Shown here: positions 11,304 to 54,236 of the stretch, piece by piece | How the letters are laid out: each line of letters starts with the position of its first letter | How positions within the stretch are numbered: position 1 is the first letter of the stretch | Virus record (IMG/VR): IMGVR_UViG_3300024258_001044 | Location: 124,001-188,000 of that record | DNA: 64,000 nt | Direction: 5' to 3' (one strand) | Source: a virus | The notes under the pieces: model-generated | Seen by the model: only the letters and a program-made list of their open reading frames with translations | What the model was told of the DNA's origin: nothing | The model's database searches: none | Program-made: the position numbers and the translations under genes

Positions 11304-11305
11304 AT

Positions 11306-12157
11306 TTAATCTTTCCTCATCTTATTTCGTTCACTAATACATGCCTCAAGAACTTCGCAAGGAACGCCGTGACGTTTCATAAAGTCTCGCAAAGCATTGG
11401 TGTCCTTGGGGAAACATGCCCCTCCATAACTAAATTGCCCGTCTGGTCCCGGCACATCAGTGTGCATAGGATTAATCCAGCCGTTTCTAAGCATAGTGCT
11501 TCTCACATCTTCATATTTAACGCCCATTCTTTTGCAGGTCAAAGCAAACTCATTGAACAATTGAACCTTTACTGCATAGAAGTTGTTACAGAATAGCTTC
11601 ATCAACTCTGCTTGTTCAGCATCACAAATCGTATACTGTGCCTCGAAATGTCTCTGATATAGAGCTACAACCTTTTGGCATACGGAGAACTCAAAGCCTC
11701 CAACGACTACATGCTTCTGGTTGGCAAAATCTTCAACCGCAGTTCTTGCAGTAAGAAATTCCGGGTTATGAACCATTGCTAACTTATACTTATCAGCTAA
11801 AGCTCTCAAAGTTCCTGGCTCCATGGTGCTTTTGACGACGACGATTCCCTGGTACTTTGCTTGTGCCAACTTCAGGAAATTCTCATGCAGCGCTGTATAG
11901 TCAAAGCCGAACCCTTCAATGTAAGGTGTAGGCAGACATATAAATACAAAGTCTGTAGGAATTAAATCCTCAAATTTGTTACTTGCAAATTCCCCTTCGC
12001 CTCCTGGTATAGTCCAGAGTTCTTTCTTATCATAGGAATACATAAGTTCTCCTGCTTTCGAAAAAAATTCAAAAACGGATCCTCCAACAAATCCCATCCC
12101 AATGACACCGATCTTTACAGGCACAAACTCTTCTTTTGTTTCAGCTTCTTCACTCAT
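11306..12157 (-). CDS. UDP-glucose/GDP-mannose 6-dehydrogenase, C-terminally short
   Basis: The enzyme should oxidise a nucleotide sugar (most likely UDP-glucose) to its uronate with two NAD. The N-terminal Rossmann motif GVIGMGFVGG, the STMEPGT loop, HNPEFLTARTA, and the catalytic Cys248 in GGACFPKDTNAL are all present. Canonical members have about 390-450 residues, with a second Rossmann-like UDP-binding domain after the catalytic helix. This one ends 35 residues past the cysteine at 283 aa, so that third domain is missing. Some other phage and bacterial family members are short too, so it need not be dead. Its product would feed the epimerase gene just downstream. Confidence 0.82.
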   Translation of the reverse strand: MSEEAETKEEFVPVKIGVIGMGFVGGSVFEFFSKAGELMYSYDKKELWTIPGGEGEFASNKFEDLIPTDFVFICLPTPYIEGFGFDYTALHENFLKLAQAKYQGIVVVKSTMEPGTLRALADKYKLAMVHNPEFLTARTAVEDFANQKHVVVGGFEFSVCQKVVALYQRHFEAQYTICDAEQAELMKLFCNNFYAVKVQLFNEFALTCKRMGVKYEDVRSTMLRNGWINPMHTDVPGPDGQFSYGGACFPKDTNALRDFMKRHGVPCEVLEACISERNKMRKD

Positions 12158-12158
12158 T

Positions 12159-12797
12159 TCAACCTCTCAGTATCTTGTTCCTAAAATATATTTCTTCCCT
12201 CCCCCAATCATGCTTTGAGATGAGGAAAGTATTCTTAATGCTCTCTACCTTTCCGGTAACAGGATTTACAAGATCATCTTTGTTGTAGTAATGAATCTGA
12301 CCACCGGTTTTTCTTTTGCTTCTATTCTCTCTGCAAAAAGAAAATCCATAAACTCTGCTTCGGTCCAAGCCACCCGTAACCTTCTTGATGCTATAGAGCA
12401 AAAGAAGACCTGTGCTTGGGCATCGCCCAAGGTCCTTCGTAAGCTCCAGCTCATTTTCAAGCGGAAGCACGTAATATTTTATACCGTTAGTCTTGCAGTA
12501 GTCTCTAAACTTCTTATTTCTATCATCTTTGGCGCGAAGGATAATGAGATCTAAATCTTCTAATAATTCCTTCTTCTGTTCCATTGTGTAAACCAGTTTA
12601 TCGTTAGTTCCTCGGATCCATATATTTACCTTGGAGCCATAATCCTCCTGAAAACCTTGGTCCAACGAGAAATCATTGAACCTGAAGATTAACTTGTGAG
12701 AATCAATCTTCTCACCATTTTTCTGGCCAACTTCGCATGGCGAATTTCCTACTATACAATAATCAAAATCGTTTCGTTTTAAAAGCTTCTTAAACAT
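12159..12797 (-). CDS. GT29 sialyltransferase-like protein
   Basis: The 212-residue protein carries the sialylmotifs of family GT29. Motif L is seen as CIVGNSPCEVGQKNGEKID (residues 14-32) followed by IFRFNDF with Asn41. Motif S is CPSTGLLLLY (126-135). A motif III-like IHYY lies at 168-171, and the motif VS His196 followed by Glu201-Glu202 in KHDWGREE. It lacks the N-terminal anchor and stem of eukaryotic Golgi sialyltransferases, so it is cytoplasmic. The donor would be CMP-sialic acid or another CMP-linked nonulosonate. NeuB, NeuA and KDO genes in the same island supply such donors. The gene overlaps the gmd stop by 8 bases. Whether it uses sialic acid, KDO or another sugar cannot be told from sequence. 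Confidence 0.7.
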   Translation of the reverse strand: MFKKLLKRNDFDYCIVGNSPCEVGQKNGEKIDSHKLIFRFNDFSLDQGFQEDYGSKVNIWIRGTNDKLVYTMEQKKELLEDLDLIILRAKDDRNKKFRDYCKTNGIKYYVLPLENELELTKDLGRCPSTGLLLLYSIKKVTGGLDRSRVYGFSFCRENRSKRKTGGQIHYYNKDDLVNPVTGKVESIKNTFLISKHDWGREEIYFRNKILRG

Positions 12798-13764
12798 CTA
12801 ACTCGGCCAAATCCGCTTCATACATTTCCTTAAGAAGTTTCTGCCAATCGTACTCAGGCTCCCATCCAAGAACGGTCTTTGCCTTTGAAGGATCGCCTCT
12901 AAGGAACGGAACATCCGATGGCCTCATGAATCTGGGGTCTGATCTGTATACATCCTCAAATTTCAAACCTGCAAGGTCACATATATACTTAAACATATCC
13001 TCTATGCTTGCCCCATAACCAGTGGCAATTACGAAATCATCTGGCTCTTCCTGCTGCAACATAAGCCACTGAGCCTTGACATAATCTTTTGCATGACCCT
13101 CATCTCTATACGGCTCAAGGTTGCCCATCCTCAAATGCTCTTCCATTCCAAGCTTCACCTTTGCGATACCTCGGGTCATCTTTCTTGTGGCAAAATCATG
13201 CCCTCTTCTTGGCGAGGAATGATTGAATAGAATTCCTGAACAGGCAAACAGACCGTACGCCTCTCTATAATTCCTTGTGGCATAGAATCCTGCGGCCTTT
13301 GCCACTGCATATGGTGAGCGTGGATAGAACGGAGACTCCTCTGTATAACCCGTATCAGGAACATGAAGGCCACCGAACAGTTCAGAGGTAGCAGCATTAT
13401 AGAAACGGGTTGCGGGGCTGAACTCTCTAATGAGATCAAGCTGCATAACAACTGCCCTACCTGTTACGTCAAATGTATGAACAGGATCTTTAAAGGAGTA
13501 TCCTACATGGGACTGTGCCGCAAGACCGTAATACTCATGCGGTTTGAAATCGTGCAGAATTCTTCCGACGAAAGTTGGGTCTGTAATGTCTCCATGCATC
13601 ACCGTTAGGTTAGGATGATCGATAATATGTTTAAGATTTTCGTTCTCATTATTAACAGAACGACGGCGAGTAAACACCAAAACTTCATATCCCTTCTCAA
13701 GAAGAAGGTCTGCCAAATAGGACGAGTCCTGGCCGGCACCTGTTACAACTGCTCTAAGCATCAT
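12790..13764 (-). CDS. gmd: GDP-mannose 4,6-dehydratase
   Basis: The 324-residue SDR should convert GDP-mannose to GDP-4-keto-6-deoxymannose. Family-specific features are visible: GAGQDSSYLADLLL at the N-terminus (the GMD form of the glycine motif), YGLAAQSHVGYSF near 78, the catalytic ATSELFG near 125, YAVAKAAGFYATRNYRE with Tyr-x3-Lys near 152, and LFNHSSPRRG near 178. The last of these is an almost diagnostic GMD element. No GDP-fucose synthase or GDP-rhamnose reductase is found next to it. The 4-keto product may be finished by a host enzyme or by a gene outside the window. AGGAGCT precedes the ATG, and the start overlaps the methyltransferase stop. Confidence 0.92.
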   Translation of the reverse strand: MMLRAVVTGAGQDSSYLADLLLEKGYEVLVFTRRRSVNNENENLKHIIDHPNLTVMHGDITDPTFVGRILHDFKPHEYYGLAAQSHVGYSFKDPVHTFDVTGRAVVMQLDLIREFSPATRFYNAATSELFGGLHVPDTGYTEESPFYPRSPYAVAKAAGFYATRNYREAYGLFACSGILFNHSSPRRGHDFATRKMTRGIAKVKLGMEEHLRMGNLEPYRDEGHAKDYVKAQWLMLQQEEPDDFVIATGYGASIEDMFKYICDLAGLKFEDVYRSDPRFMRPSDVPFLRGDPSKAKTVLGWEPEYDWQKLLKEMYEADLAELDV

Positions 13765-14396
13765 AGCTCCTTTAACTTTGTGTTTATAAATACTCTTCCT
13801 GATTTTACCATGAAGGATGACTTGATCCTTTTAACCTTTGGTGTACCGTCTTTCTTATACTTTACAAAGTGGTTAATCTTTTTCTGTTTCATTGTTGATT
13901 TAATCCGAAGAAGCTTTGTGAGTTCTTTATCTTCATTTAAGCCATAACTATGAAATATATCTTTCCAATAAGGAAATAATTGTTCATTGACATGATGATG
14001 CCCTTTTTGACCCGGAGTTGCATGAGTTATGACCACAACTTTGCACAAAGCAAATAATGGCATAAAATTCTCAATGTATTTCTCATCAATATGTTCGAGA
14101 AATTCTGTTGACCACCCAATGTCGAAATATTTTCTTTTCGGAAGAAATGGCAGATCATCTTTAGCTGCTTTTTTCTTAGAAAAATCAAAAAGATTAACAT
14201 GCTTCAACTTTGTCATCTCAGGATCTCCATCGACCCCAATAGCAGATAGCCCCAAAGCCTTCGCCACCTCAACCTGTTTGCCTGGACCGCAACCTATATC
14301 AATAAATGTTTTGGCATTTTGAAATCTATCTACCAAAGCTTTTAAGGCACCATAATCTATCCAAGTTTTGCCTTCGTGTCCGCCAACATGTTTCAT
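13761..14396 (-). CDS. SAM-dependent class I methyltransferase
   Basis: The 211-residue protein has the SAM-binding motif I FIDIGCGPGKQ (residues 35-45), the acidic residue at the end of strand 2 (VDGD), and WSTEFLEHID as the post-II motif where the strand-4 catalytic region lies. It then has VVITHATPG. This is the pattern of small-molecule or sugar methyltransferases. Its place between gmd and a sulfotransferase suggests O-methylation of a sugar. The C-terminal 50 residues are Lys-rich. Target not determined. Confidence 0.78.
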   Translation of the reverse strand: MKHVGGHEGKTWIDYGALKALVDRFQNAKTFIDIGCGPGKQVEVAKALGLSAIGVDGDPEMTKLKHVNLFDFSKKKAAKDDLPFLPKRKYFDIGWSTEFLEHIDEKYIENFMPLFALCKVVVITHATPGQKGHHHVNEQLFPYWKDIFHSYGLNEDKELTKLLRIKSTMKQKKINHFVKYKKDGTPKVKRIKSSFMVKSGRVFINTKLKEL

Positions 14397-14404
14397 ATAT
14401 TTCC

Positions 14405-15022
14405 TCAGTAAGTATAGCTGAAAGCTTTGATTTCATCTGCAAAGCGCTTTTTAACTATTTCTATTGTTTCTTCGTTGTGCAGCTCAGAATAATGTCCAAC
14501 TTTTCTGATACCAGATTTCTTTCTGGTGTCTCGGATTTCTTCGGGAGTTATCTGTAAATCAAATTGCCTATTAAGCTCATTATACATTTCATTTAAGTTT
14601 TCATAAAAAAAAACTTTATCTGCTGCTATCTCTCCACCAATAGTGTATATTTTCCAACCGACCGGAAGCCCCTTAGCTGCTATCATGTACTTTGTGAAAT
14701 CCATACCAGCATACTTCTCTGGTTTCACTTTGTTATGCCAAAAATATGAACTAACAACTTTGTCCCAAGGATTTCGTTCTATTGAAAATTTATAGTAGTT
14801 CTCGAATTCCTTTGGAAAAATCTTCTTAATCTTTGACAGATTCATGTGCCCGTTAGATATGTTTGTATTAACTTTCGATGTCCCATCACGTTCGGAACCG
14901 GTGCAGATATCTTTCGGCCCAAGCCTGCTTGACAACAGAAACTCCAGAGTAGAACCTGATGTTTTTTTAGTCTTAACGAAAATCAATTTATATTTATGAC
15001 TGATTATCAATTGCCGCCTCAT
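14405..15022 (-). CDS. Sulfotransferase (Sulfotransfer_2-like)
   Basis: The 205-residue protein resembles the carbohydrate sulfotransferases related to heparan sulfate 2-O-sulfotransferase and bacterial counterparts. The 5'-phosphosulfate loop is FVKTKKTSGSTLE (residues 15-27), and the 3'-phosphate motif is FSIERNPWDKVVSSYFW, with Arg83 and Ser91. A HYSELHNEETIEIVKKRFADEIKAFSY C-terminal region (residues about 177-203) matches the final helix pattern of the family, where the sequence ends with F-x-Y. It would sulfate a sugar residue from PAPS. It is the first minus-strand gene left of a 46-bp divergent promoter gap. Confidence 0.8.
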   Translation of the reverse strand: MRRQLIISHKYKLIFVKTKKTSGSTLEFLLSSRLGPKDICTGSERDGTSKVNTNISNGHMNLSKIKKIFPKEFENYYKFSIERNPWDKVVSSYFWHNKVKPEKYAGMDFTKYMIAAKGLPVGWKIYTIGGEIAADKVFFYENLNEMYNELNRQFDLQITPEEIRDTRKKSGIRKVGHYSELHNEETIEIVKKRFADEIKAFSYTY

Positions 15023-15046
15023 TTCCTTCAGCTATGTTACATCTCA

Positions 15047-15054
15047 TATTAATA
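15047..15054. promoter_or_regulatory. Possible bidirectional T4-late-like promoter octamer
   Basis: TATTAATA lies in the 46-58 bp gap between two divergent genes. Being palindromic, it reads the same on both strands and differs from the T4 late consensus TATAAATA by one base. It sits 25 bases before the minus-strand ATG at 15022 and 27 bases before the plus-strand ATG at 15081. The match is short and the region AT-rich, so this is only a candidate. Confidence 0.35.
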
Positions 15055-15080
15055 TCGAAATAATTAGTATGGGTGAACGA

Positions 15081-15854
15081 ATGAAGATTATATGCCATGA
15101 TGACAAAAAATTCTCAAGTCATTTCTCGTTCGGAGCTAAGGCTCCGCTTATGAACTTATACGAACAGGATTTAAGAGCAATCAAAAGCTCTGGTTATACT
15201 GCCGTAGTTACGGGACTTGGAAGACTTAAACTTATATCAAAATTTGAAGAGCTTGGCATTCCATACTTCTTTCTCGACAGGGCTTATATTTTTGGGGAAA
15301 GAAAATTTTGGATACGTGTATCCTACAACTCCCTTCAGATGAATGAGATGAGAGATATTAAAGGATGGAGAAACGTCTCACCTGTAACTCCCGAGCCATG
15401 GAGAAAAGGGGGCTCTAAAATTGTGGTGTGTCCTCCAAGTAAAAAGACCAGCGAGTTCTATAAATTTGATAAAGATAAATGGCTAAATAGAGTTGTTAAA
15501 TATCTTGATAAAAACTCCGATAGAGAAGTGATCATAAGGTACAAGCCTGATAATAAAATCGCAAGGTATCATGGAGATACATCATTGTTAGCTGCACTTG
15601 AAGATGCTCACTGCATCGTTGTGTATAATAGCAATGCAGCAACTGAGGCTATCTTTAGTGGGGTTCCAGCAATCGTCCTTGGAGATGCCGCAAGCAAATT
15701 TGTTGCCAGGACAGACCTCTCAGACATAGAGAGCCTTTGCTATCCTGATAGAGAGCTTTGGTTGAAAAACTTATTCTGTAACCAATTCACTGTTGACGAA
15801 CTGTCAAACGGTGAAGCTATAGACTTTTTAACTAAATACCATAGGATAACCTAA
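15081..15854 (+). CDS. KpsS-like capsule-type glycosyltransferase, paralog A
   Basis: The protein (257 aa from the ATG at 15081; an in-frame ATG at 15069 lacks a ribosome site, while GGTGA precedes 15081) is close to the next gene over its whole length. It contains the recurring elements of a six-member family in this window: YFFLDRAY near residue 70, EPWRKGGSKIVVCPPS near 110, a VIIRYKP strand, IVVYNSNAATEAIFSGVPAIVLG near 180, and a terminal PDRELWLKNLFCNQF. The N-S-N then G-V-P pattern resembles the C-terminal nucleotide-binding half of KpsS/KpsC capsule transferases. It is likely a GT-B-like transferase; CMP-KDO is a possible donor. It is one of only three plus-strand genes in the window. 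Confidence 0.55.
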   Translation: MKIICHDDKKFSSHFSFGAKAPLMNLYEQDLRAIKSSGYTAVVTGLGRLKLISKFEELGIPYFFLDRAYIFGERKFWIRVSYNSLQMNEMRDIKGWRNVSPVTPEPWRKGGSKIVVCPPSKKTSEFYKFDKDKWLNRVVKYLDKNSDREVIIRYKPDNKIARYHGDTSLLAALEDAHCIVVYNSNAATEAIFSGVPAIVLGDAASKFVARTDLSDIESLCYPDRELWLKNLFCNQFTVDELSNGEAIDFLTKYHRIT

Positions 15855-16627
15855 TGAAATTGATTTGCCATGACGATACGAGATTCACTCGTGAATTCGC
15901 AGAAGGAGCCAATGCTCCCATCACAAACATACACAAACAAGATTTAGTAAAGCTAAAAAAGAAAGGATATACCGTTGCCTTTACCGGCTTCGGAAGAATG
16001 AAGCTAATCATAAAACTTGAGGCTTACGGAATTCCTTACTTCTTTATCGATAGGGGATACATTATTGATGACGGAAAGAAGCAATGGATGCGAGTATGTT
16101 ATAATTCTTTTCAAATGGAGAGGATGAGAGACTTTAGCTCATGGCGTAGAGGTATCAAAATTAAGCCTAAATCTTGGAAAAAAAACGGAGATTACATTCT
16201 TGTTGTCCCTCCATGCGCAAAGGCCGGCAGGTATTGGGGGTTTGATAACAAAAAATGGCTGGAGTCTACTGTTACCGAACTCAGGGAATATTCGAATAGG
16301 GACATCCTTATTAGGGCGAGACCAATAGTTCGAGATAGATACGAAGGTTCAAAATCCTTAGTTAATGCCGCTAAAAATGCACATTGTATTGTTGCTTATA
16401 ACAGCAATGCTGCTACAGAAGCTATTTTCCATGGCACACCCGCAATCGTACTTGGCGAAGCTGCCAGCAAATTCGTATCAGCACAAAAGCTCTCGAATGT
16501 TGAAAAACTTATCCGTCCAGACAGAACAGAATGGATCAAAAATCTTATGTATAATCAGTTCAGTCGTGAAGAGCTTACAAGTGGAGCGGCCTTAAAGGCA
16601 CTCATAAAAATGCATAATCTCAAGTAA
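15854..16627 (+). CDS. KpsS-like capsule-type glycosyltransferase, paralog B
   Basis: The 257-residue protein is a tandem duplicate of the preceding gene. It starts at TAATG overlapping its stop, and the two share near-identical opening residues (MKLICHDD against MKIICHDD), YFFIDRGY, a PKSWKKNGDYILVVPP element, and IVAYNSNAATEAIFHGTPAIVLGEAASKFV near residue 180. The C-terminus PDRTEWIKNLMYNQFSREEL ends as in paralog A. Its 3' end overlaps the convergent minus-strand gene by 36 bases; no hairpin terminator is seen there. Retention of two tandem copies suggests separate linkages or sugars in one glycan. Confidence 0.55.
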   Translation: MKLICHDDTRFTREFAEGANAPITNIHKQDLVKLKKKGYTVAFTGFGRMKLIIKLEAYGIPYFFIDRGYIIDDGKKQWMRVCYNSFQMERMRDFSSWRRGIKIKPKSWKKNGDYILVVPPCAKAGRYWGFDNKKWLESTVTELREYSNRDILIRARPIVRDRYEGSKSLVNAAKNAHCIVAYNSNAATEAIFHGTPAIVLGEAASKFVSAQKLSNVEKLIRPDRTEWIKNLMYNQFSREELTSGAALKALIKMHNLK

Positions 16628-17404
16628 CTTCTTTTTAAAAGTAAACGGAACGCATTGGTAAAATAGCAGCTTATTGAGAGCATCGACTATCTGCTCCTGG
16701 CTATGAAACTTATTTCTCGATAAACTCTTTTTATTTGAAGACATGTGAACAAGGGGGCCGGCTCCTAAATCAATAAATGGCATTCCATATAGAAGAGCAT
16801 CTACCGAAGCAATGCTACTATGACAAATCAAAGCAGATTTTTCGCTCATATCATTATAGATAGGATTGTGTAACATACGCTCCTCTCTATCTTTAGATTT
16901 CTTTCTCACATAGAAAGAGTCAAAATAGGAAGAATATTCTACATATTCAACAACCTGAGCCCATCTTACTGGATCTATCTCTTCAAGAAAACAATACTTC
17001 CTTGATGGAGGAATAATAATGGCGCCATTATATGCACTGTAGTCATACTGATTCTCCAGCATCTTAAGATACTCCGTCTCATAATATTTGTCATATCCCC
17101 TTAGAAACGAAAATATTTCTCCACGAGGAACGTCGTAGTCTGGCGGATGCATTGCATTTGGAATCATTCTTGTATATTTGACTTTATCTCTGAAATTACC
17201 AAGATAACCTGAGTCTACAAAAATATAGTTCTGCGGAAAACCACCTGTATGCCTTTTGATCGAGATCATTTCTTTCATCCCATTTACAAAAAGATAATCA
17301 TCTCTAATGTCTGAGAATTTTTTAACTACCCTCGGTTTTAAAGCCCTTATCTCATCTCTGATTCCGCCTTTAAAACCGCTATCATGTTTTACGGAAAATT
17401 TCAT
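16592..17404 (-). CDS. KpsS-like capsule-type glycosyltransferase, paralog C
   Basis: The 270-residue protein is the most divergent of the six-member family. It keeps YIFVDSGYLGNF near residue 81, GAIIIPPSRKY near 132, a FYVRKKS strand, and ALICHSSIASVDALLYGMPFIDLG near 190, which corresponds to the N-S-N/G-V-P element of the paralogs. The final PDRxxW segment of the paralogs is not obvious; the C-terminus is instead HSQEQIVDALNKLLFYQ. It overlaps the next gene by ATGA. It is probably a cytoplasmic glycosyltransferase of GT-B-like fold. Confidence 0.5.
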   Translation of the reverse strand: MKFSVKHDSGFKGGIRDEIRALKPRVVKKFSDIRDDYLFVNGMKEMISIKRHTGGFPQNYIFVDSGYLGNFRDKVKYTRMIPNAMHPPDYDVPRGEIFSFLRGYDKYYETEYLKMLENQYDYSAYNGAIIIPPSRKYCFLEEIDPVRWAQVVEYVEYSSYFDSFYVRKKSKDREERMLHNPIYNDMSEKSALICHSSIASVDALLYGMPFIDLGAGPLVHMSSNKKSLSRNKFHSQEQIVDALNKLLFYQCVPFTFKKKLLEIMHFYECL

Positions 17405-18171
17405 AGGTTTCGTTTGTGGTATCCTTTTTGATGATCAAAAAAGTTACCAAGGTCTCCTCTCATAATGACGTGTGATTTTGACCTACCTGTGTCTCCATAA
17501 TCAGTTACTAAATCTATACCTTTCTCCTTAAGCTTAGGGTTTGCATCAAGAACATAAAAAAACATGTGTGCATCGTTCCACCATTCGTGCTGTTTAAATC
17601 CAGCACCATTATACTTCTTAATCCATTTGGATAATGCCTTCTTAGAGTACTTATCGTTCTTAAACCCAAGAAGCCCTGTCTCTACGCCCATCCTTTTCTT
17701 GGTACGGTCCCTGCCGAGATGATAGCCGAATGACTTTCCTTGAAGTGCTTTAACTAAATCTTGCTCAGTAAACGTATTTGTAAAAAAGCAATCGCAATCT
17801 ACCCACATAAAGTAATCATATTGGTCCGTATAATTTTCCATGGCGTACTTCATTGTTGCAATCTTCTTAGTCCACTGCGCAGTTCTATAGTTTGGAGTCT
17901 TAAATGCCTGAAAACTACTTTCCTTTGTAGCTTTGCCACCAAATTTTTCAGGTATAATATCAAGATTTGCTTCGAACCATCTTCTATAGAACCTATTATC
18001 GCTCATGTCTTCAACTGTAATATTTTTGCCATTGATTAAAGAAGTGTCCATACCTTCTACGTAACAAAAAAGGTCACCTTCTGTTTTGGTTTTCTTAAAG
18101 GTCTCAATAAGCCTCTTTCCTGTTAGATTATAGAGATGACCACTAAAAGATGTGATATATAAAATAGACAC
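17401..18171 (-). CDS. GT-A fold glycosyltransferase with DxD motif
   Basis: The 256-residue protein has the metal-binding D-x-D in FMWVDCDCFF near residue 122, preceded by a strand and an IATMKYAMENY helix that positions it. ETGLLGFKND near 165 and QHEWWNDAHMFFYVLD near 195 look like acceptor or catalytic parts of a GT-A fold such as GT34 or GT8-like enzymes. An N-terminal YITSFSGHLYNLTGKRL region forms the first Rossmann strand and loop. It needs a nucleotide-sugar donor and Mn. Precise family and linkage are not readable. It is co-transcribed with paralog C by an ATGA overlap. Confidence 0.65.
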   Translation of the reverse strand: MSILYITSFSGHLYNLTGKRLIETFKKTKTEGDLFCYVEGMDTSLINGKNITVEDMSDNRFYRRWFEANLDIIPEKFGGKATKESSFQAFKTPNYRTAQWTKKIATMKYAMENYTDQYDYFMWVDCDCFFTNTFTEQDLVKALQGKSFGYHLGRDRTKKRMGVETGLLGFKNDKYSKKALSKWIKKYNGAGFKQHEWWNDAHMFFYVLDANPKLKEKGIDLVTDYGDTGRSKSHVIMRGDLGNFFDHQKGYHKRNL

Positions 18172-18172
18172 T

Positions 18173-18928
18173 TTACTCCTTAATTAATTCTTGATATTTC
18201 TCAAGATAACATTCCTTTACCTCGACGTACTTTTCAAAATCTTTGAACGCACCTTTTCCAACCCAGATTATACTGTCATCATTTAACATCCAATCTATAT
18301 GTTTATCTAAAAGCTGATAATGATTGACAAACTCTCTGTTTTTATAAAAAGTTCCTCTTAGCGCTATCTGATCCGAATACCACTTAAGAACTCCGGCCTT
18401 TGAGACTTCCTTTTTTAAGGTCTTTGTAAATTCAAGAATTTTATCTGAATTCTTAAAATACAATACACCACTTAGTGCCCCTTTAGTTTTACTTGCGCCT
18501 TCCCTTAGTCGGAAAGCAATATCGTAGCCCTTAACATCTTCATAAAACAATTCGATATCCTTATTTAAAATAGAATCAGTATCCAAATAAATCAAATCTA
18601 AAAGCTCTCTTGACTTTAGCAATTTGTATATTACTAAGAATCTTAAGTTCGCAGAGTAAGCCATTAGCTCGCTGTATTCTTTAGTCTTATGTCTCTTATT
18701 GATTGACTCATCCAAATCTTTGAATATATAATTCTCTTCTATGAGTATGTCATTACGCAATGCTCTAAGCAGCTCAAACTCCTCTTCAAGGCTCTTCCTG
18801 TTTTCTTCAGAAGCGTTGATTATATACAAAATTAGCCTAATATTTTTGGAGTGAGTATATATGGATGATAGCATAGCCTTTGCATTTTCAATGTATGAGT
18901 CACTAAATGTTAATAATATGTTTCTCAT
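18173..18928 (-). CDS. GT8-like glycosyltransferase
   Basis: The 251-residue protein begins with ILLTFSDSYIENAKAMLSSI, the strand and helix of GT8-type enzymes. It has the metal-binding LIYLDTDSI (D-x-D near residue 114) and SGVLYFKNSDKI near 150, a family-like acceptor-side strand. KWYSDQIALRG near 185 matches the D-Q element of GT8. Several GT8-like phage and LPS enzymes have this size. Donor is probably UDP-glucose or UDP-galactose, but that is inference. A TATAAATA octamer lies 17 bases before its ATG, so it may head a transcript that runs left. Confidence 0.7.
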   Translation of the reverse strand: MRNILLTFSDSYIENAKAMLSSIYTHSKNIRLILYIINASEENRKSLEEEFELLRALRNDILIEENYIFKDLDESINKRHKTKEYSELMAYSANLRFLVIYKLLKSRELLDLIYLDTDSILNKDIELFYEDVKGYDIAFRLREGASKTKGALSGVLYFKNSDKILEFTKTLKKEVSKAGVLKWYSDQIALRGTFYKNREFVNHYQLLDKHIDWMLNDDSIIWVGKGAFKDFEKYVEVKECYLEKYQELIKE

Positions 18929-18944
18929 TAGGTAGGCTTCCTTA

Positions 18945-18952
18945 TATTTATA
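18945..18952 (-). promoter_or_regulatory. Perfect T4-late-type promoter octamer
   Basis: The minus strand reads TATAAATA, the exact T4 late promoter consensus, in the 78-bp divergent gap. It ends 16 bases before the ATG of the GT8-like gene. T4 late promoters need a phage sigma-like factor and a sliding clamp. Whether this phage has them cannot be seen here. The opposite strand of the same gap carries TATAAAAG and, at 18959-18964, TATAAT, which could serve the plus-strand gene. Confidence 0.45.
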
Positions 18953-18958
18953 TAAAAG

Positions 18959-18964
18959 TATAAT
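18959..18964 (+). promoter_or_regulatory. Possible -10 element for the plus-strand gene
   Basis: TATAAT lies 43 bases upstream of the GTG at 19007 and just before the 22-bp tandem repeat. No good TTGACA-like -35 is visible 16-18 bases upstream, so it would need an extended contact or a phage factor. Confidence 0.3.
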
Positions 18965-18970
18965 AGTAGC

Positions 18971-19014
18971 GACGGAGAATTAACGTGAGACTGACGGAGA
19001 ATTAACGTGAGACT
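18971..19014 (+). repeat. Perfect 22-bp tandem duplication across a start site
   Basis: Two identical 22-bp units (18971-18992 and 18993-19014) lie head to tail. Each holds GGAG, a seven-base spacer and a GTG start codon. The second GTG (19007) opens the long gene. The first (18985) opens a six-codon frame that ends in TAA at 19003-19005, one base before the second GTG. The unit looks like a recent slip or unequal exchange; a functional leader peptide is also possible. Confidence 0.9.
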
Positions 19015-20041
19015 GAAAGTTGGGATTTTTTTAGAAACGGTTGGTAACTCATCCACTGACTCAAAAAGACGAATTTTGCATAGCTTTGCAGAAGGTGTTA
19101 GGAAGTCTGAAGATAGAGCAATTATCGTAAATAAACCAGAATATAGAAACTGCGACATCGCTCTTATCTTTGGCTTTTATGGGCAAAATCTTGGGTATAC
19201 CCAAAGTGTGCGAAAAAAAGTATTTAAAGCTCACTTGGCGCGCGGCAAAAAATGTATATTCATTGATGCTGATCCGCTAAAATATGCCGGCACCAATCTT
19301 CCGAAAAATCAAATTGATCCACTTCATTACCTTAGAGTCTCTCATACTTCTGTGTATCCAAGCGATGGTTACTACTTTAATGAAGGCTCTCCATCAGATC
19401 GTTGGGATAAAATTAGTAAAGAGAAAAATATTGTACTAAAACCCTATCGTAAAGAAGGTGATCATATTCTCATATGTCTTAATAGTGACAATAAACGTGG
19501 TCGCGGATGGTCTACTCGAAATTATGACGCAGACAAATGGCTGAGAAATACTATCAAAGAAATTAGAATGAAAACCGATTTCCCGATTAGACTCAGGTTT
19601 CATCCAGGTGGAGATGAAATCACTCACAGATCAAGACACTGGAAAAAATTTCTCGGAGTTAATAATATAACGTTCTCTGGAGGAATTATAGGCAGACATC
19701 CATCAATTATTAACAATACCACAATGCTTGAGGAAACAGAGCGCGCTATCGCCTGCATTACTATGACATCTTCGTCAACTATTGTGGCGGTCATCAATGG
19801 CGTCCCAATCTTTACCGATAACAAAGACTGTTTAACATATCCTGTTGCCAATCATAATTATAGCAAAATCCTTACACCAAAATTTCCAAATAGAGATCAG
19901 TGGCTGTACAACTTAGCTTATAGCTGTTGGAACTGTGATGAAATGAAAAACGGAATCGTATGGGATCGATTCCGTAGTCGGCTAAATGATAATGGAGATT
20001 ACTCTAAGAAAAAAGCTCGCAGATTAGGAGTCATACCTTGA
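19007..20041 (+). CDS. KpsS-like capsule-type glycosyltransferase, paralog D
   Basis: The 344-residue protein starts with GTG inside the second 22-bp repeat, seven bases after GGAG. It is the longest of the six paralogs and has a fuller N-domain. Recurrent elements are KCIFIDADPLKY near residue 85, SPSDRWDKI near 128 (shared with paralog E), KPYRKEGDHILICLNS near 146, IRLRFHPGGDE near 197, an AIACITMTSSSTIVAVINGVPIF stretch near 245, and NRDQWLYNLAYSCWNCDEM near 302. The H-P plus S-S-S-x-x-x-A-x-x-x-G-V-P arrangement is what KpsS-type transferases show. It is convergent with paralog E and overlaps its 3' end by 18 bases. Confidence 0.55.
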   Translation: MRLKVGIFLETVGNSSTDSKRRILHSFAEGVRKSEDRAIIVNKPEYRNCDIALIFGFYGQNLGYTQSVRKKVFKAHLARGKKCIFIDADPLKYAGTNLPKNQIDPLHYLRVSHTSVYPSDGYYFNEGSPSDRWDKISKEKNIVLKPYRKEGDHILICLNSDNKRGRGWSTRNYDADKWLRNTIKEIRMKTDFPIRLRFHPGGDEITHRSRHWKKFLGVNNITFSGGIIGRHPSIINNTTMLEETERAIACITMTSSSTIVAVINGVPIFTDNKDCLTYPVANHNYSKILTPKFPNRDQWLYNLAYSCWNCDEMKNGIVWDRFRSRLNDNGDYSKKKARRLGVIP

Positions 20042-20923
20042 TTTCTTAAGCCTCTGCCATGGAATTCCTTTGAGAATTTCATTTGAATTCCACTGAGAGT
20101 ATGCTATATCAAAAAGGAGTTGCTCTCTTTTGTAGAGCTTCAATTTATTTAGTTTTTTCATATTGTTGGAAATAGGATAAGCCATAGAACCTCTATCGAA
20201 AGCTACAATCGGTACACCCATAATTGCTGCGTCAACTAAGGTATTCGAATTAAAAGCAACGCATACATAAGAATCCTTAAGATCTTTCTCCAATGACCTG
20301 TCGGACCAACCTATATTAACTCCAGCTAAAGCCTCTTTGTAAAGACTTGGCTTTGCGAATAAAGGATGAGGTCTGAAAATAACATCTTTGTCGTAAGTTT
20401 CTGACAAATAAATTGCAGTATCTCTAAGCCAATTAAGATAACCTTTAATCATCTTACTCTTACTTTTCTCTTTTGTATAATTGATGTGCTGAACATTGGT
20501 GTCCCAGGCTACTTGGCCACATAATAGAATAATTCCGTCTTCCTTAACGCGCCAGGGGGATAGTTCTATGCCTAGCTCCTTGTACCTATCTGATGGACTT
20601 TTGTGGTTATAGAATTCAGCTCTACCATTTACGTTGCTAAATCCAAGCGAAAAATAATCGCTACGCTTTAGAAACCCTCGCTCCATAATCAGCATATCTT
20701 TGCCGGCTTTCTCTTGCCCATCAAAAATAGCTTTCCTTACTCTTCCGCCTTTAGTAGCGTATTTGTGTAATCCATAAGTAATAGCTATGTCGGAGACTTC
20801 GTATTCATCCTCGTATTTGACCTGAAAATCCTTCTCAAGAGAGGACATCGATTCCATCAGCATAGGATAAATGATATCAATCATCGGCTCCTTCTTTCTT
20901 CTCTTGTAAAGGATGATTTTCAC
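20024..20923 (-). CDS. KpsS-like capsule-type glycosyltransferase, paralog E
   Basis: The 299-residue protein is close in layout to paralog D. It has KDMLIMERGFL near residue 75, KSPSDRYKELG near 107, SPWRVKEDGIILLCGQ near 122, DVIFRPHPLF near 179, and VAFNSNTLVDAAIMGVPIVAFDRGSMAYPIS near 220. It ends with KREQLLFDIAYSQWNSNEI near 266. The R-P-H-P followed by F-N-S-N is the best KpsS/KpsC-like match of the set. The N-terminus MKIILYKRRKKEP suggests a first Rossmann strand. It is likely a GT-B-like transferase; donor unknown. The start overlaps the methyltransferase stop by ATGA. Confidence 0.58.
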   Translation of the reverse strand: MKIILYKRRKKEPMIDIIYPMLMESMSSLEKDFQVKYEDEYEVSDIAITYGLHKYATKGGRVRKAIFDGQEKAGKDMLIMERGFLKRSDYFSLGFSNVNGRAEFYNHKSPSDRYKELGIELSPWRVKEDGIILLCGQVAWDTNVQHINYTKEKSKSKMIKGYLNWLRDTAIYLSETYDKDVIFRPHPLFAKPSLYKEALAGVNIGWSDRSLEKDLKDSYVCVAFNSNTLVDAAIMGVPIVAFDRGSMAYPISNNMKKLNKLKLYKREQLLFDIAYSQWNSNEILKGIPWQRLKKSRYDS

Positions 20924-21528
20924 TTTCTTATAACCAAAACCTGCTTGGTATAGAATTCGCCGCTTGTATCATAAAGTGGCATGATAGAAACTTGAAGTTC
21001 CTGATCTTCCATAAGCTCATGGATAAGATTATTGCATCCAAATTTCTCTGTTCTTTTTGCAAGAAGATCTTTGTCATCGCAATCATAATAGTCATCAAAA
21101 ATGATTACCTTACTGCGCCTGACTTTGGAATAGTCGTGTCTAATAGTATCTATGTGATGCCCTCCATCAATATATACAAAATCATATTTCCCTTTACGCA
21201 GAACATCATTTGTATTGCCTTTAACAAGTTCAACCTCGAAGTCTCCATTCTTATTTTTTCGAACTTTTCTTGTTACCTTATTCTCGATGACTTCTTTAAC
21301 CTTACTCACCTCTGTTCTCGTAGTTTTACCGTTGAATTCTTCAGTATCAGTTTCATCGGAAGCTTCTTCGAATAAATCGTATCCTATATAGCTTACACCG
21401 TTATTATACTTAAGGGCCGCCAATAGCATAGAGATTGCTCTTCTCCCACTGAAGGTTCCAATCTCACAGATAGTAAGGGGCTCGTATTCTGCGATAGTTT
21501 TAGTTACATTTCCATATCTATTTGCCAT
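20920..21528 (-). CDS. Class I SAM-dependent methyltransferase (Methyltransf_24-like)
   Basis: The 202-residue protein has motif I as TICEIGTFSGRRAISML (residues 17-33), a strand-2 acidic turn YIGYDLFEEA, and KYDFVYIDGGHHIDTIRHDY near 122. That last motif, with Asp-Gly-Gly-His-His, is typical of Methyltransf_24 sugar or O-methyltransferases that bind a metal. VIIFDDYYDCDD near 145 adds the second Asp pair. A 35-residue charged insertion lies between motifs I and III. It likely methylates a sugar or nucleotide-sugar hydroxyl in the glycan pathway. Confidence 0.7.
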   Translation of the reverse strand: MANRYGNVTKTIAEYEPLTICEIGTFSGRRAISMLLAALKYNNGVSYIGYDLFEEASDETDTEEFNGKTTRTEVSKVKEVIENKVTRKVRKNKNGDFEVELVKGNTNDVLRKGKYDFVYIDGGHHIDTIRHDYSKVRRSKVIIFDDYYDCDDKDLLAKRTEKFGCNNLIHELMEDQELQVSIMPLYDTSGEFYTKQVLVIRK

Positions 21529-21531
21529 GAT

Positions 21532-22470
21532 TTACCTTTTAAAATCTTTTTTCATTCCAAGCTCATAAATATATGAGTTTGCTTTTCCATCAAGAACTTC
21601 CTTGTTGGACCAAGTTGTATGAGCTAGTCTGTAAAACCATTCGGTTCTATTCGGCCTTAAATTTTTTTTGAAATTTTCGTATCCAACCACTGCTGTTGGA
21701 CCTGTAAAATATCTGCACCCTACCACTGTTGGGATTCCTGCGAAAACTGATTTGATCGCAACGCCAGAGTTGTAGGTAAACACCTTCTTCGCTCCTTCAA
21801 AATCATCTTGTAATGACTTTTCAAACGGAGAGACTTCTATCCTATCAGATAATTCTGTTAATCTTTTGCCGAACCTCAAATTCTCATTCTGGTGATATTT
21901 CCTTGGATGGAATCTATATATAATCTTTTCATCTGTCTTCTTTAACAAATGCTGTATACAATTATACGCCCAAGTATTGTAACTTATGTTATAATAATAT
22001 GAGAAATATGGAGGGCGACTATTCTGAGCACAAAAGAGAAAATAGTCCCCATTTCTTTTCCATGGCTGTATGGAGAAACCTGTAGGTTTTCTCTTTATCA
22101 ATCTTCTAATATGTTCCGGTTGCATCATCCTTTTTTTTGGAAAAAGATTGATGTGTCCTCCGCTATCAATATACGAAAAAGTCATTGTCATATTCCCCCA
22201 TCCGGAGAATATTCCTTTAGTCACGATAAGCTTAGGGCAAGATGAATTCTTAATGACATCACTAAGGGCACGAGAGCTTTTTGAGTGGTTATGCCCAGTT
22301 CCCATTGGAGATATAATTAAATCTGCTTCAGGTGTTCCATCAAGAGCGCAAGATACTGTAATCTCAGGATCGATTTTCAGATATTCTGAAAGTCCCTCAA
22401 CCCAAGGAATACTATCTATTGCAGTCGATTTTCTTTTAGCATAAACTATGTCAATCCTTGTCTTCTTCAC
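21532..22470 (-). CDS. KpsS-like capsule-type glycosyltransferase, paralog F
   Basis: The 312-residue protein belongs to the six-member family. It has MTFSYIDSGGHINLFPKKR near residue 95, IQPWKRNGDYFLFCAQNS near 133, KIIYRFHPRKY near 178, VFTYNSGVAIKSVFAGIPTVVG near 228, and RPNRTEWFYRLAHTTWSNKEVLDG near 272. The R-F-H-P and N-S-G/G-I-P pair match the donor-site half of KpsS-type proteins. ADLIISPMGTGHNHSKSS near 50 is a glycine-containing loop in the N-domain. It ends 3 bases before the methyltransferase gene. Confidence 0.55.
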   Translation of the reverse strand: MKKTRIDIVYAKRKSTAIDSIPWVEGLSEYLKIDPEITVSCALDGTPEADLIISPMGTGHNHSKSSRALSDVIKNSSCPKLIVTKGIFSGWGNMTMTFSYIDSGGHINLFPKKRMMQPEHIRRLIKRKPTGFSIQPWKRNGDYFLFCAQNSRPPYFSYYYNISYNTWAYNCIQHLLKKTDEKIIYRFHPRKYHQNENLRFGKRLTELSDRIEVSPFEKSLQDDFEGAKKVFTYNSGVAIKSVFAGIPTVVGCRYFTGPTAVVGYENFKKNLRPNRTEWFYRLAHTTWSNKEVLDGKANSYIYELGMKKDFKR

Positions 22471-22471
22471 T

Positions 22472-23233
22472 TTATATCCTTAATGATTTTCCTTTCGGAA
22501 CATACAGGCAATCCTTTCCAAATTTCAGCTCTTCTACATATCCTAAATTAAATAACAATTCTCGTATTTCTTCTATATCATGAAATTCTCCATTACCCAT
22601 AGAAACTTCCACTATTAATATAGGCATCCATTTTTCAATAGTCTTTGCTGCTCCAAGTAGAGCCTTATACTCAAAACCTTGGATATCGAATTTGATTAGA
22701 TCAACCTGATCTGTTTCTTCTATCAAATCGTCAATCCTGCAAGTCTGCATACCATCACTGCCTTCTTCAAAATAATTCATGCCGGTATTCTCTATATGAG
22801 AGACTATTGAACCGGTTTCCTTACCTGTTCCTACAGCCTCATTGATGTGAAGAACTTTGGGGCAGTTAAGCTGAAGGCACTGATAATTTCTTTGATCTGG
22901 CTCGATAGAAATTGTTGTGTTGAATATTTCGGACATTGCTCTTGACATGAAACCAACATGAGCCCCAACGTCTACCGCCACTCTTTTTTCTTTCAAATAA
23001 ATGGTTGCAAGCAGAAAGGTGGCATATTGATATCTATCGTGAGCCTTGGGAAAATGACTATCACCATCCGGAACAAGCAAAGAACCAAACATTTTCCTTT
23101 TTTTCTTTTGAAAAAAAACCTCGTCCTTAGTTGCGTTTAAAAATAGATACTTGTATTCTTTCGATAAAGCTCGTGCCTGTTTTTTAAAAAGCTTTTTGCT
23201 CTTTAAAGGATTTGTTAAAATAACTTTCTTCAT
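22472..23233 (-). CDS. FkbM-family methyltransferase
   Basis: The 253-residue protein shows the FkbM pattern: VAVDVGAHVGFMSRAM near residue 86 as motif I, a TISIEPDQRNYQCLQLN strand-2 region with the conserved E-P-D, and LIKFDIQGFEYKALLGA near 178 with the family's K-x-D-x-E/Q-G-x-E core. ILIVEVS follows. FkbM proteins O-methylate sugars and polyketides with SAM, and are common in capsule and LPS clusters. The 80 N-terminal residues, rich in Lys, are not part of the SAM fold. It overlaps the next gene by ATGA. Confidence 0.82.
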   Translation of the reverse strand: MKKVILTNPLKSKKLFKKQARALSKEYKYLFLNATKDEVFFQKKKRKMFGSLLVPDGDSHFPKAHDRYQYATFLLATIYLKEKRVAVDVGAHVGFMSRAMSEIFNTTISIEPDQRNYQCLQLNCPKVLHINEAVGTGKETGSIVSHIENTGMNYFEEGSDGMQTCRIDDLIEETDQVDLIKFDIQGFEYKALLGAAKTIEKWMPILIVEVSMGNGEFHDIEEIRELLFNLGYVEELKFGKDCLYVPKGKSLRI

Positions 23234-24036
23234 TTCTTATTACTTAGGTTTTTTCGCAACTCAACCCATTCGTTAGAGTATTGAAGATCTGTAAATCTTT
23301 CAGCAATCCAAGTATCAAACCATGGTCCGCCAGTAGTGAAATGAACATTCTTTGGCTCCAAATCTTCTGGAGAGTGACCGTCAAGCCAGTTCCACTCTTC
23401 AGGTAGAGCACCAATGTCCTGATCCTCCAGCCACTTGAAATTATGAAGCCATGTTCCGGACTTCATATTAACATCTCCAACTGTAAGGTTATCGTGACCT
23501 GCGTGTCCACAGTTCCAAAGCATTACACTGGACCAATTCTTTCTCCTGTAGAAAGTCTGCGGACATCCGTATAGTTTTAACTTAAGATTTCCACCATGCT
23601 CATACTCGTGCTGAACACACTGAATTGCTGGTGCATCTTCTGTTGCGAAATTATCAAAAATCTCACAAGGGTCACTTCTGAAATACATATCGCAGTCCAT
23701 GAATAGTGCGAATCCCTCACGCTGATTCAGGAATGGTACAAGGAACCTTGAGAAACTAAACTCTGTAGAATATGGCTTGCCATCCATTCTGTCATGCATG
23801 TGCCCAAAAGGATTTGAGGCCCAAACTGTAGAATCCAGATGAGGCGCCCTTGTGTATAGTCCCGCTTTACGAAGGCCCATCTGATTCAAGGTCACAATGT
23901 TAAGAGGTCTTGATGCATGACGCTCAATTGAATCAATTAAAACCTCAACTGCTTCATGCTCCCTGCTATCGTACCCGATATAAATTGTATCAAGTCTTCT
24001 TACTTTCTTTCCATCTTGATTAACTACTGATCTCAT
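23230..24036 (-). CDS. GT8-like glycosyltransferase
   Basis: The 268-residue protein opens with DTIYIGYDSREHEAVEVLIDSI, a GT-A first strand and helix. It has the metal motif FALFMDCDMYF (D-x-D near residue 113) and a downstream KNVHFTTGGPWF near 238 that mirrors the H-F-x-G-x-x-K/W ending of GT8 galactosyl- and glucosyltransferases. Length is typical. Donor is probably a UDP-hexose; no more can be said. GAGGAG precedes the ATG, and KdsD follows with an ATGA overlap. Confidence 0.72.
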   Translation of the reverse strand: MRSVVNQDGKKVRRLDTIYIGYDSREHEAVEVLIDSIERHASRPLNIVTLNQMGLRKAGLYTRAPHLDSTVWASNPFGHMHDRMDGKPYSTEFSFSRFLVPFLNQREGFALFMDCDMYFRSDPCEIFDNFATEDAPAIQCVQHEYEHGGNLKLKLYGCPQTFYRRKNWSSVMLWNCGHAGHDNLTVGDVNMKSGTWLHNFKWLEDQDIGALPEEWNWLDGHSPEDLEPKNVHFTTGGPWFDTWIAERFTDLQYSNEWVELRKNLSNKK

Positions 24037-24617
24037 TTAACTTCTCCTCTTGATTTCTGTCCAAGATAGCCGCCATGATGCCTTTTAGAATACTCCTCAA
24101 TTGAGAATTCCTTAGCTTCCATTACCATCATAGATAGAACATCTCCGATAACAAGCATCGCTGTTGTTGAGCAAGTAGGCGCCATTCCAAGTGGGCACAC
24201 CTCAGGATATCCTCCTGTCTCGATTACCACATCGGAGATTAATGCAAGCTCAGCAGCCCTGTTGGATGTTACTGTAACTAGTTTCATGCCGTCAACTAAA
24301 ATCTTAGCAAGAGAGACGGTCTCAACAACTTCTCTCGTCCTACCTGAGTTCGAGAATGCCAGTATCATATCGCCTTTCCCGATCATTCCCAGATCGCCAT
24401 GCTGCGCCTCGCAAGGATGCATATAAAATGCTGGCGTTCCTGTTGAGGCAAAGGTCGCTGCAATTTTTCGTGCAATTAAGCCAGCCTTTCCCATACCTGT
24501 AAAGACAATTTTACCTTCGCAGGCCACGATGGCGTCAACAGCTTCTTGGATACCGGTTAAAGGTATCGCCTGAAGTGCCTTAATCTCTTCCTGAATTATC
24601 TCTTGCGCTGTTTTCAT
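24033..24617 (-). CDS. kdsD: Arabinose-5-phosphate isomerase (SIS domain only)
   Basis: The 194-residue protein should interconvert ribulose-5-phosphate and arabinose-5-phosphate, the first step toward KDO. It has the SIS-domain fold with KIVFTGMGKAGLIARKIAATFASTG (residues 35-59), a sugar-phosphate-binding FSNSGRTREVVE near 89, and the family-specific PCEAQHGDLGMI near 68 and CPLGMAPTCSTTAML near 140. Bacterial KdsD/GutQ proteins have about 320 residues with two CBS domains; this one ends after the SIS domain. Active CBS-less versions are known. Together with KdsA and KdsB it forms a CMP-KDO set. The 56 bases upstream hold no clear gene. Confidence 0.88.
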   Translation of the reverse strand: MKTAQEIIQEEIKALQAIPLTGIQEAVDAIVACEGKIVFTGMGKAGLIARKIAATFASTGTPAFYMHPCEAQHGDLGMIGKGDMILAFSNSGRTREVVETVSLAKILVDGMKLVTVTSNRAAELALISDVVIETGGYPEVCPLGMAPTCSTTAMLVIGDVLSMMVMEAKEFSIEEYSKRHHGGYLGQKSRGEVK

Positions 24618-24673
24618 TACTTTGTTTCATCCTGTTACTTTCTGATAAAATTCTATATCTTTTATTCTATAAA

Positions 24674-25474
24674 TCATGACCGCACTTTTTCCCGCTTCTC
24701 CACAATCTTCCTGACCCTATCGAGATCCTCTTGGGTATCTACCGATATCTTATTTACATCCGTACCAAAAGCTGTATAAACAGGAATGCCTTCGTAAAGC
24801 CAAGTTAATTGTTCAAGCTTCTCAGTCTCCTCCAAATAAGAAGTCTCCAATCCCCTAACCTTATCGATAGTCTTCTTTGTAAAACCATAAACGCCAAGAT
24901 GCTTAAGATAAGGACTCTTCTTACTAAGAAAATCTGTATAGAAATGGGAGACGCTATCTCCCTCCCTTGTATAAGGAATTGCTGAACGACTAAAGTATAA
25001 CGCTCTTCCATTTTTATCGGTAACAACCTTAGCAACGGAAGGATTATTTATCTCGTCTTTCTTAAGAGATGCCACAAGCGTCAGCACCGCCATTTCATTT
25101 GGCTTGAAATTGACAAGATTAAGCGACAGCATCCTGATGGTATACTCTTCGATCAATGGCTGGTCGCCTTGGATATTAATGAAGTAGTCGTAGTCCTCAA
25201 ATCTTTTCATACCTTCAACTTCACACATTCTTGCGGTGCCAGATACATGATCCATAGATGTCATTACGACATCGCCACCGAAAGCCTTAACTACGTCCAC
25301 AATCCTTTGATCATCTGTAGCTACAACTAATCCATCAAGTTCCGCAGACATAGCCCTTTCATATACCCATTGAATCATAGGCTTACCTGCTATGTCAGCC
25401 AGTGGCTTACCTGGCAATCTATTGGAGCCATACCTTGCAGGGATAACTCCCAATACTTTTTTCTTACGACCCAT
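24674..25474 (-). CDS. kdsB: 3-deoxy-manno-octulosonate cytidylyltransferase (CMP-KDO synthetase)
   Basis: The 266-residue protein couples KDO to CTP, giving CMP-KDO. The N-terminal VIPARYGSNRLPGKPLADIAGKPM (residues 10-33) is the diagnostic nucleotide-binding loop. FINIQGDQPLIEE near 103 gives the metal-binding Asp, and VLTLVASL, ALYFSRSAIPYTR and LKHLGVYGFTKK follow in the family order. Length matches the usual 245-260 residues. The start overlaps the KdsA stop by TAATG. The product is short-lived, which fits its being made beside the transferases that use it. Confidence 0.93.
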   Translation of the reverse strand: MGRKKKVLGVIPARYGSNRLPGKPLADIAGKPMIQWVYERAMSAELDGLVVATDDQRIVDVVKAFGGDVVMTSMDHVSGTARMCEVEGMKRFEDYDYFINIQGDQPLIEEYTIRMLSLNLVNFKPNEMAVLTLVASLKKDEINNPSVAKVVTDKNGRALYFSRSAIPYTREGDSVSHFYTDFLSKKSPYLKHLGVYGFTKKTIDKVRGLETSYLEETEKLEQLTWLYEGIPVYTAFGTDVNKISVDTQEDLDRVRKIVEKREKVRS

Positions 25475-26253: not shown

Positions 26254-26267
26254 AGTTCATCCTCCGA

Positions 26268-27784: not shown

Positions 27785-27981
27785 TGCTCCTCCTCTATGT
27801 AGTCTCCGCCATGATATTTGTCCTGATGACCTTCGCAAGCATGGACCCAATAGTAATCGTCATCACCGTAATATTCTTCATCGATGGCTTGTGTATCTCC
27901 CCAGCATGGCTCCTCATTATCAATCGCATAACAATCTTCATTGCAACACTGCGCCTTGATGTATGTGACTGATTCACTCAT
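27781..27981 (-). CDS. Small acidic Cys-containing protein (66 aa)
   Basis: Not recognised. The 66-residue protein is very acidic (YGDDDYYWVHACEGHQDKY near the middle) with four cysteines, in CCNEDC and EEPCW and HACEG positions, which could bind a metal. It overlaps the downstream neuB by ATGA and the upstream HAD gene by 8 bases, and GGAGGAG within its end serves neuB. The precise coupling on both sides argues that it is a real gene and not a shadow. Confidence 0.6.
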   Translation of the reverse strand: MSESVTYIKAQCCNEDCYAIDNEEPCWGDTQAIDEEYYGDDDYYWVHACEGHQDKYHGGDYIEEEQ

Positions 27982-30248: not shown

Positions 30249-30249
30249 C

Positions 30250-54226: not shown

Positions 54227-54236
54227 CTATCTTCCC

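Follow-up and report, generated by a model that had tools for sequence, protein, structure and literature searches.

The retaining transferases of beta-linked 3-deoxy-D-manno-oct-2-ulosonic acid (Kdo) are described as the only glycosyltransferases that have been well shown to use covalent double displacement (PMC12887879). In KpsC, WbbB and KrkA the aspartate of a QXXXD motif attacks the donor, Kdo activated by cytidine monophosphate (CMP-Kdo), a glutamate serves as the base, and CMP is bound through a (K/R)XHP motif (PMC10148158, PMC12887879); as KrkA illustrates, such enzymes can be related despite negligible sequence similarity (PMC12887879). The present work concerns six genes, A to F, within a 64,000-nucleotide stretch of DNA from a giant bacterial virus (positions 124,001 to 188,000 of IMG/VR record IMGVR_UViG_3300024258_001044; hereafter the window, whose own numbering is used), which a first-pass annotation had taken to be divergent paralogs of a KpsS/KpsC-like transferase family. 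It is considered probable that the six products are soluble glycosyltransferases of GT-B type and belong to the superfamily of retaining beta-Kdo transferases (KpsC/WbbB/KrkA); judged by its aligned catalytic residues, E is a predicted retaining beta-Kdo transferase, and the other five appear to be diverged relatives without the nucleophile. The six genes, with the classes described further below, are as follows.

15081..15854, plus strand: protein A, class III, with Asp66 at the base position, a PPS loop and R-x-K-P; model of mean predicted local distance difference test (pLDDT) 92.4
15854..16627, plus strand: protein B, class III, a local duplicate of A with 51% identity
16592..17404, minus strand: protein C, class III and the most diverged, with a PPS loop and RKKS
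19007..20041, plus strand: protein D, class II, with an Asp base, a GWS loop and R-x-H-P, without the nucleophile
20024..20923, minus strand: protein E, class I, predicted retaining beta-Kdo transferase, with Glu81, Gln137 and Asp141 of QXXXD, and R184-P-H-P187
21532..22470, minus strand: protein F, an atypical member of the HP clade, with R-x-H-P present and the base and nucleophile lost

All six open reading frames were confirmed at these coordinates and have lengths normal for genes; A has an additional in-frame ATG at 15069. That they constitute one family, as had been proposed, is borne out by profile searches in which each protein is detected by a profile built without it. A profile built from 19 sequences, all from other viral contigs, detects every one of the six (E-values of 1.5e-60 for D, 1e-55 for A, 2e-54 for B, 8e-45 for E, 4e-29 for F and 6e-12 for C), leave-one-out profiles recover each of them at an E-value of at most 5.4e-12, and the decoys, which comprised 1,200 shuffled sequences, reversed proteins and 37 other proteins of the window, gave no match to the outside-only profile at E<=10. 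Chance sharing of motifs among the six is rejected by these matches and the decoy-free background. Protein E as the sole query against the phage's own 236 kilobase (kb) record retrieves A, B, C, D and F (E-values 8e-13 to 0.003), and pairwise phmmer comparisons link all six, with A and B the only close pair, as had been noted, D and E related at 2e-16, and C the weakest at about 2e-4. These genes occur in only one other phage record, a contig of 395 kb from the same phage, which is 100% identical over E and has these six copies and no more. The small motifs first quoted as common to the six are real, but they depend on the class and are looser than described: the strand [FY]-[IFL]-D-x-[GA]-Y is limited to A, B and C (D has FIDADP, E has IMERGF and F has VTKGIF), and R-x-H-P is limited to D, E and F (A has RYKP, B has RARP and C has RKKS). 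The paralog region (14000-23000) has a GC content of 35-39%, compared to about 41-45% for most of the window.

No family in Pfam, PHROG or NCBIfam covers the six proteins. A comparison with PF05159 (Capsule_synth) had been proposed; none of the six matches it at E<=10, and it matches only one of 25 family members (E-value 0.012). Weak partial matches were obtained to the putative glycosyltransferase family DUF6716 of Pfam in 12 of the 25, and to TIGR04331 and TIGR04396 of NCBIfam in two and four of them respectively, with the proteins of the window scoring far under the curated cut-offs of all three. The relationship is instead carried by predicted structures and by profile comparison. When AlphaFold models of E (pLDDT 86.7, predicted template modelling score 0.87) and of A were searched against 350,542 PDB chains, ranks 1-19 for E were all retaining beta-Kdo transferases (KpsC, WbbB and KrkA; E-values 1.9e-7 to 9e-6), with the first match outside this group at 1.9e-4, and ranks 1-28 for A all belonged to the same three families, with the next match at 4.9e-3. 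An epimerase or GT9 fold for E is rejected by this search. The family profile finds KpsC (E-value 0.05) and WbbB as its best matches among PDB sequences, and HHalign relates the family to the N- and C-terminal modules of KpsC and to KpsS, all taken from the kps genes of E. coli Nissle, with a probability of 97.5% (97.7% for class I alone), while 20 column-shuffled controls reach at most 0.8%. Because of the matches of the models and the HHalign probability, the initial KpsS/KpsC-like assignment can be regarded as right with respect to fold and ancestry.

The assignment of function depends on the catalytic residues, and these differ from protein to protein. When E is aligned on KpsC, Glu81 corresponds to Glu66, Gln137 to Gln156, Asp141 to Asp160 and His186 to the histidine of the HP motif, with a nucleophile loop of Q137-V-A-W-D141 and a CMP motif of R184-P-H-P187, and only E combines the QXXXD nucleophile, the Glu base and (K/R)XHP. 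Protein D has R-x-H-P (RFHP) and an Asp at the base position, with NSDNK...GWS instead of QXXXD, and F retains RFHP and the Gln (QNSRP) while both base and nucleophile are gone. Proteins A, B and C have lost the nucleophile, the Gln and the His; they have Pro-Pro loops (PPSKKT, PPCAKA and PPSRKY respectively), Lys or Arg replaces the His of HP, and C additionally has Ser for Pro. Of the 196 members of the wider family, 195 retain the positions of the Arg that contacts cytosine in the solved enzymes and of the Ser at the CMP phosphate, and because of this conservation CMP-sugar donors are proposed for all: the six probably use CMP-activated sugars, less certainly so in the case of A to C.

The wider family was collected by scans of viral contigs; class II sequences as queries led to 69 viral loci, and the total set comprises 93 loci, which reduce to 52 non-redundant viral contig groups with 196 distinct members. 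The enzyme system thus recurs in many viruses and is not peculiar to this phage. The members fall into class I (23 members), with a QxxxDxSL loop (QLPGDASL or QKEGDSSL); class Ib (35 members), with a QHDKSLQW loop and a Glu base; class II (47 members), with a QRNGGWSM loop and an Asp base; and class III (91 members), with a PPS or PPT loop and Lys or Arg in place of His. The four classes usually co-occur in one contig in a recurrent order, commonly W-III-(I)-II-...-Ib, where W is a partner gene described below. At least three members are present in 34 of the 52 groups, the maximum is five, and the six of the window are the largest set found. Members from one contig are scattered across the tree, whereas E groups with a podovirus copy (support 99/98), and copies from two further contigs group with D (99/94); the classes therefore predate these phages. 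Recent tandem amplification in this phage is rejected by the tree, in which only A and B are a local duplicate, and the paralogs are, on this phylogenetic evidence, old lineages retained jointly in many viruses. Rooting on Kps sequences places class I close to the root and makes class III a single derived clade (96/97), as would fit a Kdo-transferase-like ancestor whose nucleophile was later lost; fine placement is unsure for the long branches (C, F and KpsS). No relatives in bacterial genomes appeared in two contig scans based on short peptide patterns, and a bacterial source may nevertheless exist. One class I gene with the full QXXXD signature (MW202713.1, 4792-5610, locus L012) has no coding-sequence annotation in its GenBank record. 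In the window itself, a 317-residue GT-B-like protein (28294-29247, minus strand), with no Pfam match, a weak match to TIGR04396, and KRHA and PSSA motifs, is possibly a seventh, remoter relative of the family.

Two rival explanations for the diverged proteins can be weighed against this conservation. If all six were Kdo transferases making a Kdo-rich polymer, with loop changes that are neutral or compensated, then the common fold, the retained CMP-binding Arg and Ser, and the adjacent CMP-Kdo genes would all be accounted for; but the nucleophile and the carboxylate-binding Gln, which are invariant in GT99, GT107 and GT140, are missing in A to D, F is without the Asp, and the replacement loops are conserved class by class in the 52 contig groups, so that they look like different active sites. 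This explanation is improbable, and because only E retains the complete catalytic signature, neither the family-wide reading as Kdo transferases nor the Kdo-rich glycan suggested at first is supported. A similarly low probability is given to the explanation that the paralogs without QXXXD serve E-type enzymes as inactive or regulatory subunits, a view favoured by the lost nucleophile of five of the six; the replacement motifs (PPS/PPT, QRNGGWSM and the Asp base) are conserved across large divergence, and class III is often present without class I.

The genes beyond F supply further context, and include the partner gene and those for sugar activation.

23230..24036, minus strand: partner gene W, a GT-A-like nucleotide-diphospho-sugar transferase (phrog_28018)
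24033..24617, minus strand: KdsD-like arabinose-5-phosphate isomerase, with a SIS domain alone and no CBS domain
24674..25474, minus strand: KdsB, CMP-Kdo synthetase, above the TIGR00466 cut-off
25474..26253, minus strand: KdsA, Kdo-8-phosphate synthase, above the TIGR01362 cut-off
26268..26945, minus strand: CMP-nonulosonate cytidylyltransferase-like (PseF-like) protein, below cut-off
26942..27850, minus strand: NeuB-type nonulosonate synthase (PF03102), below the NCBIfam equivalog cut-offs

The earlier proposal that the phage makes CMP-Kdo agrees with the predicted KdsA and KdsB, both above their NCBIfam cut-offs, and with the KdsD-like isomerase. Because a NeuB-type route is encoded by the phage as well, Kdo is not the sole CMP-sugar available. 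Among the contig groups, kdsA is confined to those that have class I (4 of 16, compared to 0 of 36; p=0.0067; with the window included, 5 of 17, p=0.0022). The association provides what appears to be independent context for class I as a Kdo transferase, and the tracking of class I only is a further point against a Kdo role for the whole set of six.

Gene W was found in 45 of the 52 contig groups with family members, usually less than 100 bases from one of them. It matches just 18 of 50,697 phage records; 15 of the 18 come from Caulobacter phages and Mosig and are matched by A as well. In Synechococcus phage S-SCSM2R (locus L049, 11995-15520) a homolog of W lies two genes from kdsB and kdsA, and no KpsC-like member was detected there. 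In Stenotrophomonas phage DLP6 (locus L051, 8686-9477) a homolog adjoins a protein with, by eye, a GT29 sialyltransferase-like N-terminus, a neighbour which suggests that the CMP-sugar transferases cooperating with W are not all of one fold.

The surroundings of these genes bear on the question of what the enzymes modify.

9596..36332: the whole soluble glycan island, with genes for GT4, GT8-like, epimerase, GMD, uridine diphosphate-sugar dehydrogenase, methyltransferase and sulfotransferase proteins
12159..12797, minus strand: GT29 sialyltransferase-like protein
50915..54671, minus strand: baseplate genes (phrog_6, phrog_2669), upstream of the island and on the strand shared with most island genes

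No transmembrane-like segment was found in any product of the island, and the Wzx flippase, Wzy_C polymerase and priming transferase (PF01943, PF04932 and PF02397) are absent from the 395 kb record, in which ABC transporters were not searched; stepwise cytosolic assembly on a protein acceptor is therefore favoured. Very large tail-region genes accompany the baseplate genes upstream of the island, and in Caulobacter phages the family genes lie close behind an annotated tail protein. Virion glycosylation is established in mycobacteriophages, according to work cited in PMC12619734. Adjoining the baseplate genes of the window is a gene (41248-50904, minus strand) for a protein of 3218 residues with a lectin-like Laminin_G_3 domain near its C-terminus, which is a candidate tail protein and glycan acceptor. 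A homing-endonuclease-like gene (phrog_3339; 31164-32558, minus strand) lies within the island.

Other acceptors have to be considered because the neighbours of the family genes in Mosig and in locus L042 are replication genes, which makes DNA or a host glycolipid possible. Remodelling of host lipopolysaccharide or capsule, for example in order to block superinfection, would draw on a lipid carrier and an export apparatus of the host. Gram-negative surfaces typically contain Kdo, sialic-type and uronic sugars, and for the capsule and lipopolysaccharide gene clusters of cyanophages a function of this kind has been put forward (PMC7824862). The 395 kb record has neither flippase nor polymerase nor priming enzyme, and the island has no membrane segments, which argues against this explanation, although soluble transferases could, like KpsC, act at the inner leaflet on glycolipid of the host; it is considered unlikely though a good deal less so than a Kdo role for all six. 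Glycosylation of phage DNA to give hypermodified bases is very improbable: the proximity to RuvC and ribonucleotide reductase genes would fit it, as would the phage glycosyltransferase arrays that hypermodify DNA in work cited in PMC12619734, while here and in the Caulobacter phages the genes adjoin tail genes. We know of no precedent for the use of CMP-ulosonic donors on DNA.

The reading that is considered probable as a whole combines membership of the superfamily, E as a Kdo transferase with diverged companions, and a cytosolic acidic glycan for which a tail protein is the likeliest acceptor; the homology, the predicted fold, the catalytic residues of each protein, the conserved set and order of genes and the association of kdsA with class I are shown by the comparisons above, and in the scheme that follows, enzyme activity, donors, order of addition, linkage and acceptor are all inferred. 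The neighbouring KdsD, KdsA and KdsB, with a KdsC phosphatase that would come from the host, would supply CMP-Kdo for E, whose Asp141 would attack it to form a covalent Kdo-enzyme adduct, to be resolved by an acceptor hydroxyl activated through Glu81. Because they have lost the nucleophile, A, B, C, D and F, which would share a common ancestor with E, would need either another route of transfer or another CMP-sugar; one guess is direct displacement with an Asp as the base. The six enzymes, W and the other transferases of the island would then build, stepwise and in the cytosol, a single oligosaccharide that is acidic, methylated and probably sulfated, most likely on virion (tail) proteins.

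Several observations weigh against this combined reading. The global template modelling scores to the PDB matches are only 0.41-0.53 when normalised by the query, with large root mean square deviations and 8-15% identity, modest values that can be attributed to the comparison of divergent two-domain proteins; both models were built from one shared alignment of 25 sequences, and the KpsC-type fold is extended to B, C, D and F through homology. KdsC was looked for and not found, the association of kdsA was tested post hoc and is based on four groups, of which two are related, and the family genes adjoin RuvC in Mosig and L042, and also ribonucleotide reductase in Mosig, and not tail genes.

A bolder proposal, held tentatively and with somewhat less than even confidence, is that the viral branch of the superfamily has split into four co-inherited classes which form an assembly line of recurrent order for a phage-specific acidic glycan, and that double- and single-displacement transfer evolved in one fold. 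The four loops would correspond to an Asp nucleophile, a Ser replacing it, an Asp base without a nucleophile, and Pro-Pro with Lys or Arg for the His of HP.

Few families of retaining beta-Kdo transferases have been characterised, and the phage family adds 196 diverse and mostly unannotated members, whose natural replacements of the nucleophile make the evolution of the double-displacement mechanism directly testable. The results also point to a phage glycan system, so far undescribed, that is widely shared and has a fixed set of enzymes; its product can be sought on real virions, since the family is present in the cultured phages CcrColossus, CcrBL9 and Mosig. Neither the fold nor the mechanism of class I is new; the multi-class viral branch, the conserved replacements of the nucleophile and the near-constant partner gene W were found nowhere described in the open-access literature searched, in which no report of phage KpsC-like enzymes was found either.

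Among known systems, KpsC (GT107), the retaining beta-Kdo transferase of group 2 capsules, resembles E in its predicted fold, its QXXXD, Glu base and (K/R)XHP motifs, and its soluble GT-B architecture with a CMP site. Identity to the phage proteins is, however, about 12-14%, KpsC has two modules where E has one, A to D and F are without the nucleophile, and there is no match to PF05159. The N-terminal module of KrkA (GT140) shares the fold of E, but KrkA is reported to have no significant BLAST match to KpsC, whereas the phage proteins do align with KpsC by profile, and the general base of E sits at the KpsC position, in contrast to KrkA. The N-terminal module of WbbB (GT99) is the best PDB match of A and among the best of E, with a weak sequence signal shared with the phage family across the region from R-x-HP to the Ser; WbbB is part of a larger protein which adds terminal Kdo to O-antigen, while the phage proteins are single-domain with class-specific loops. 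The inverting CMP-sialic acid transferases (GT29, GT38, GT42, GT52 and GT80) also have the (K/R)XHP motif for CMP (PMC12887879), and an Asp-type base would resemble that of classes II and III, but in the fold search with E the first sialyltransferase (5wcn) appears at rank 30 with an E-value of 2e-3, far below the Kdo transferases. A precedent for a change of donor within the superfamily is KpsS1 (GT118), a relative of KpsS and a retaining pseudaminic acid transferase that uses a nonulosonic CMP-sugar (PMC12887879). Outside phages, four "capsule polysaccharide biosynthesis proteins" of Tetraselmis virus 1, a giant virus of a eukaryotic alga, match A structurally (BFVD entries A0A2P0VNK4, A0A2P0VP54, A0A2P0VP72 and A0A2P0VP74). 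Kdo-type sugars are abundant in the scales of Tetraselmis, and the presence of these relatives would fit with that.

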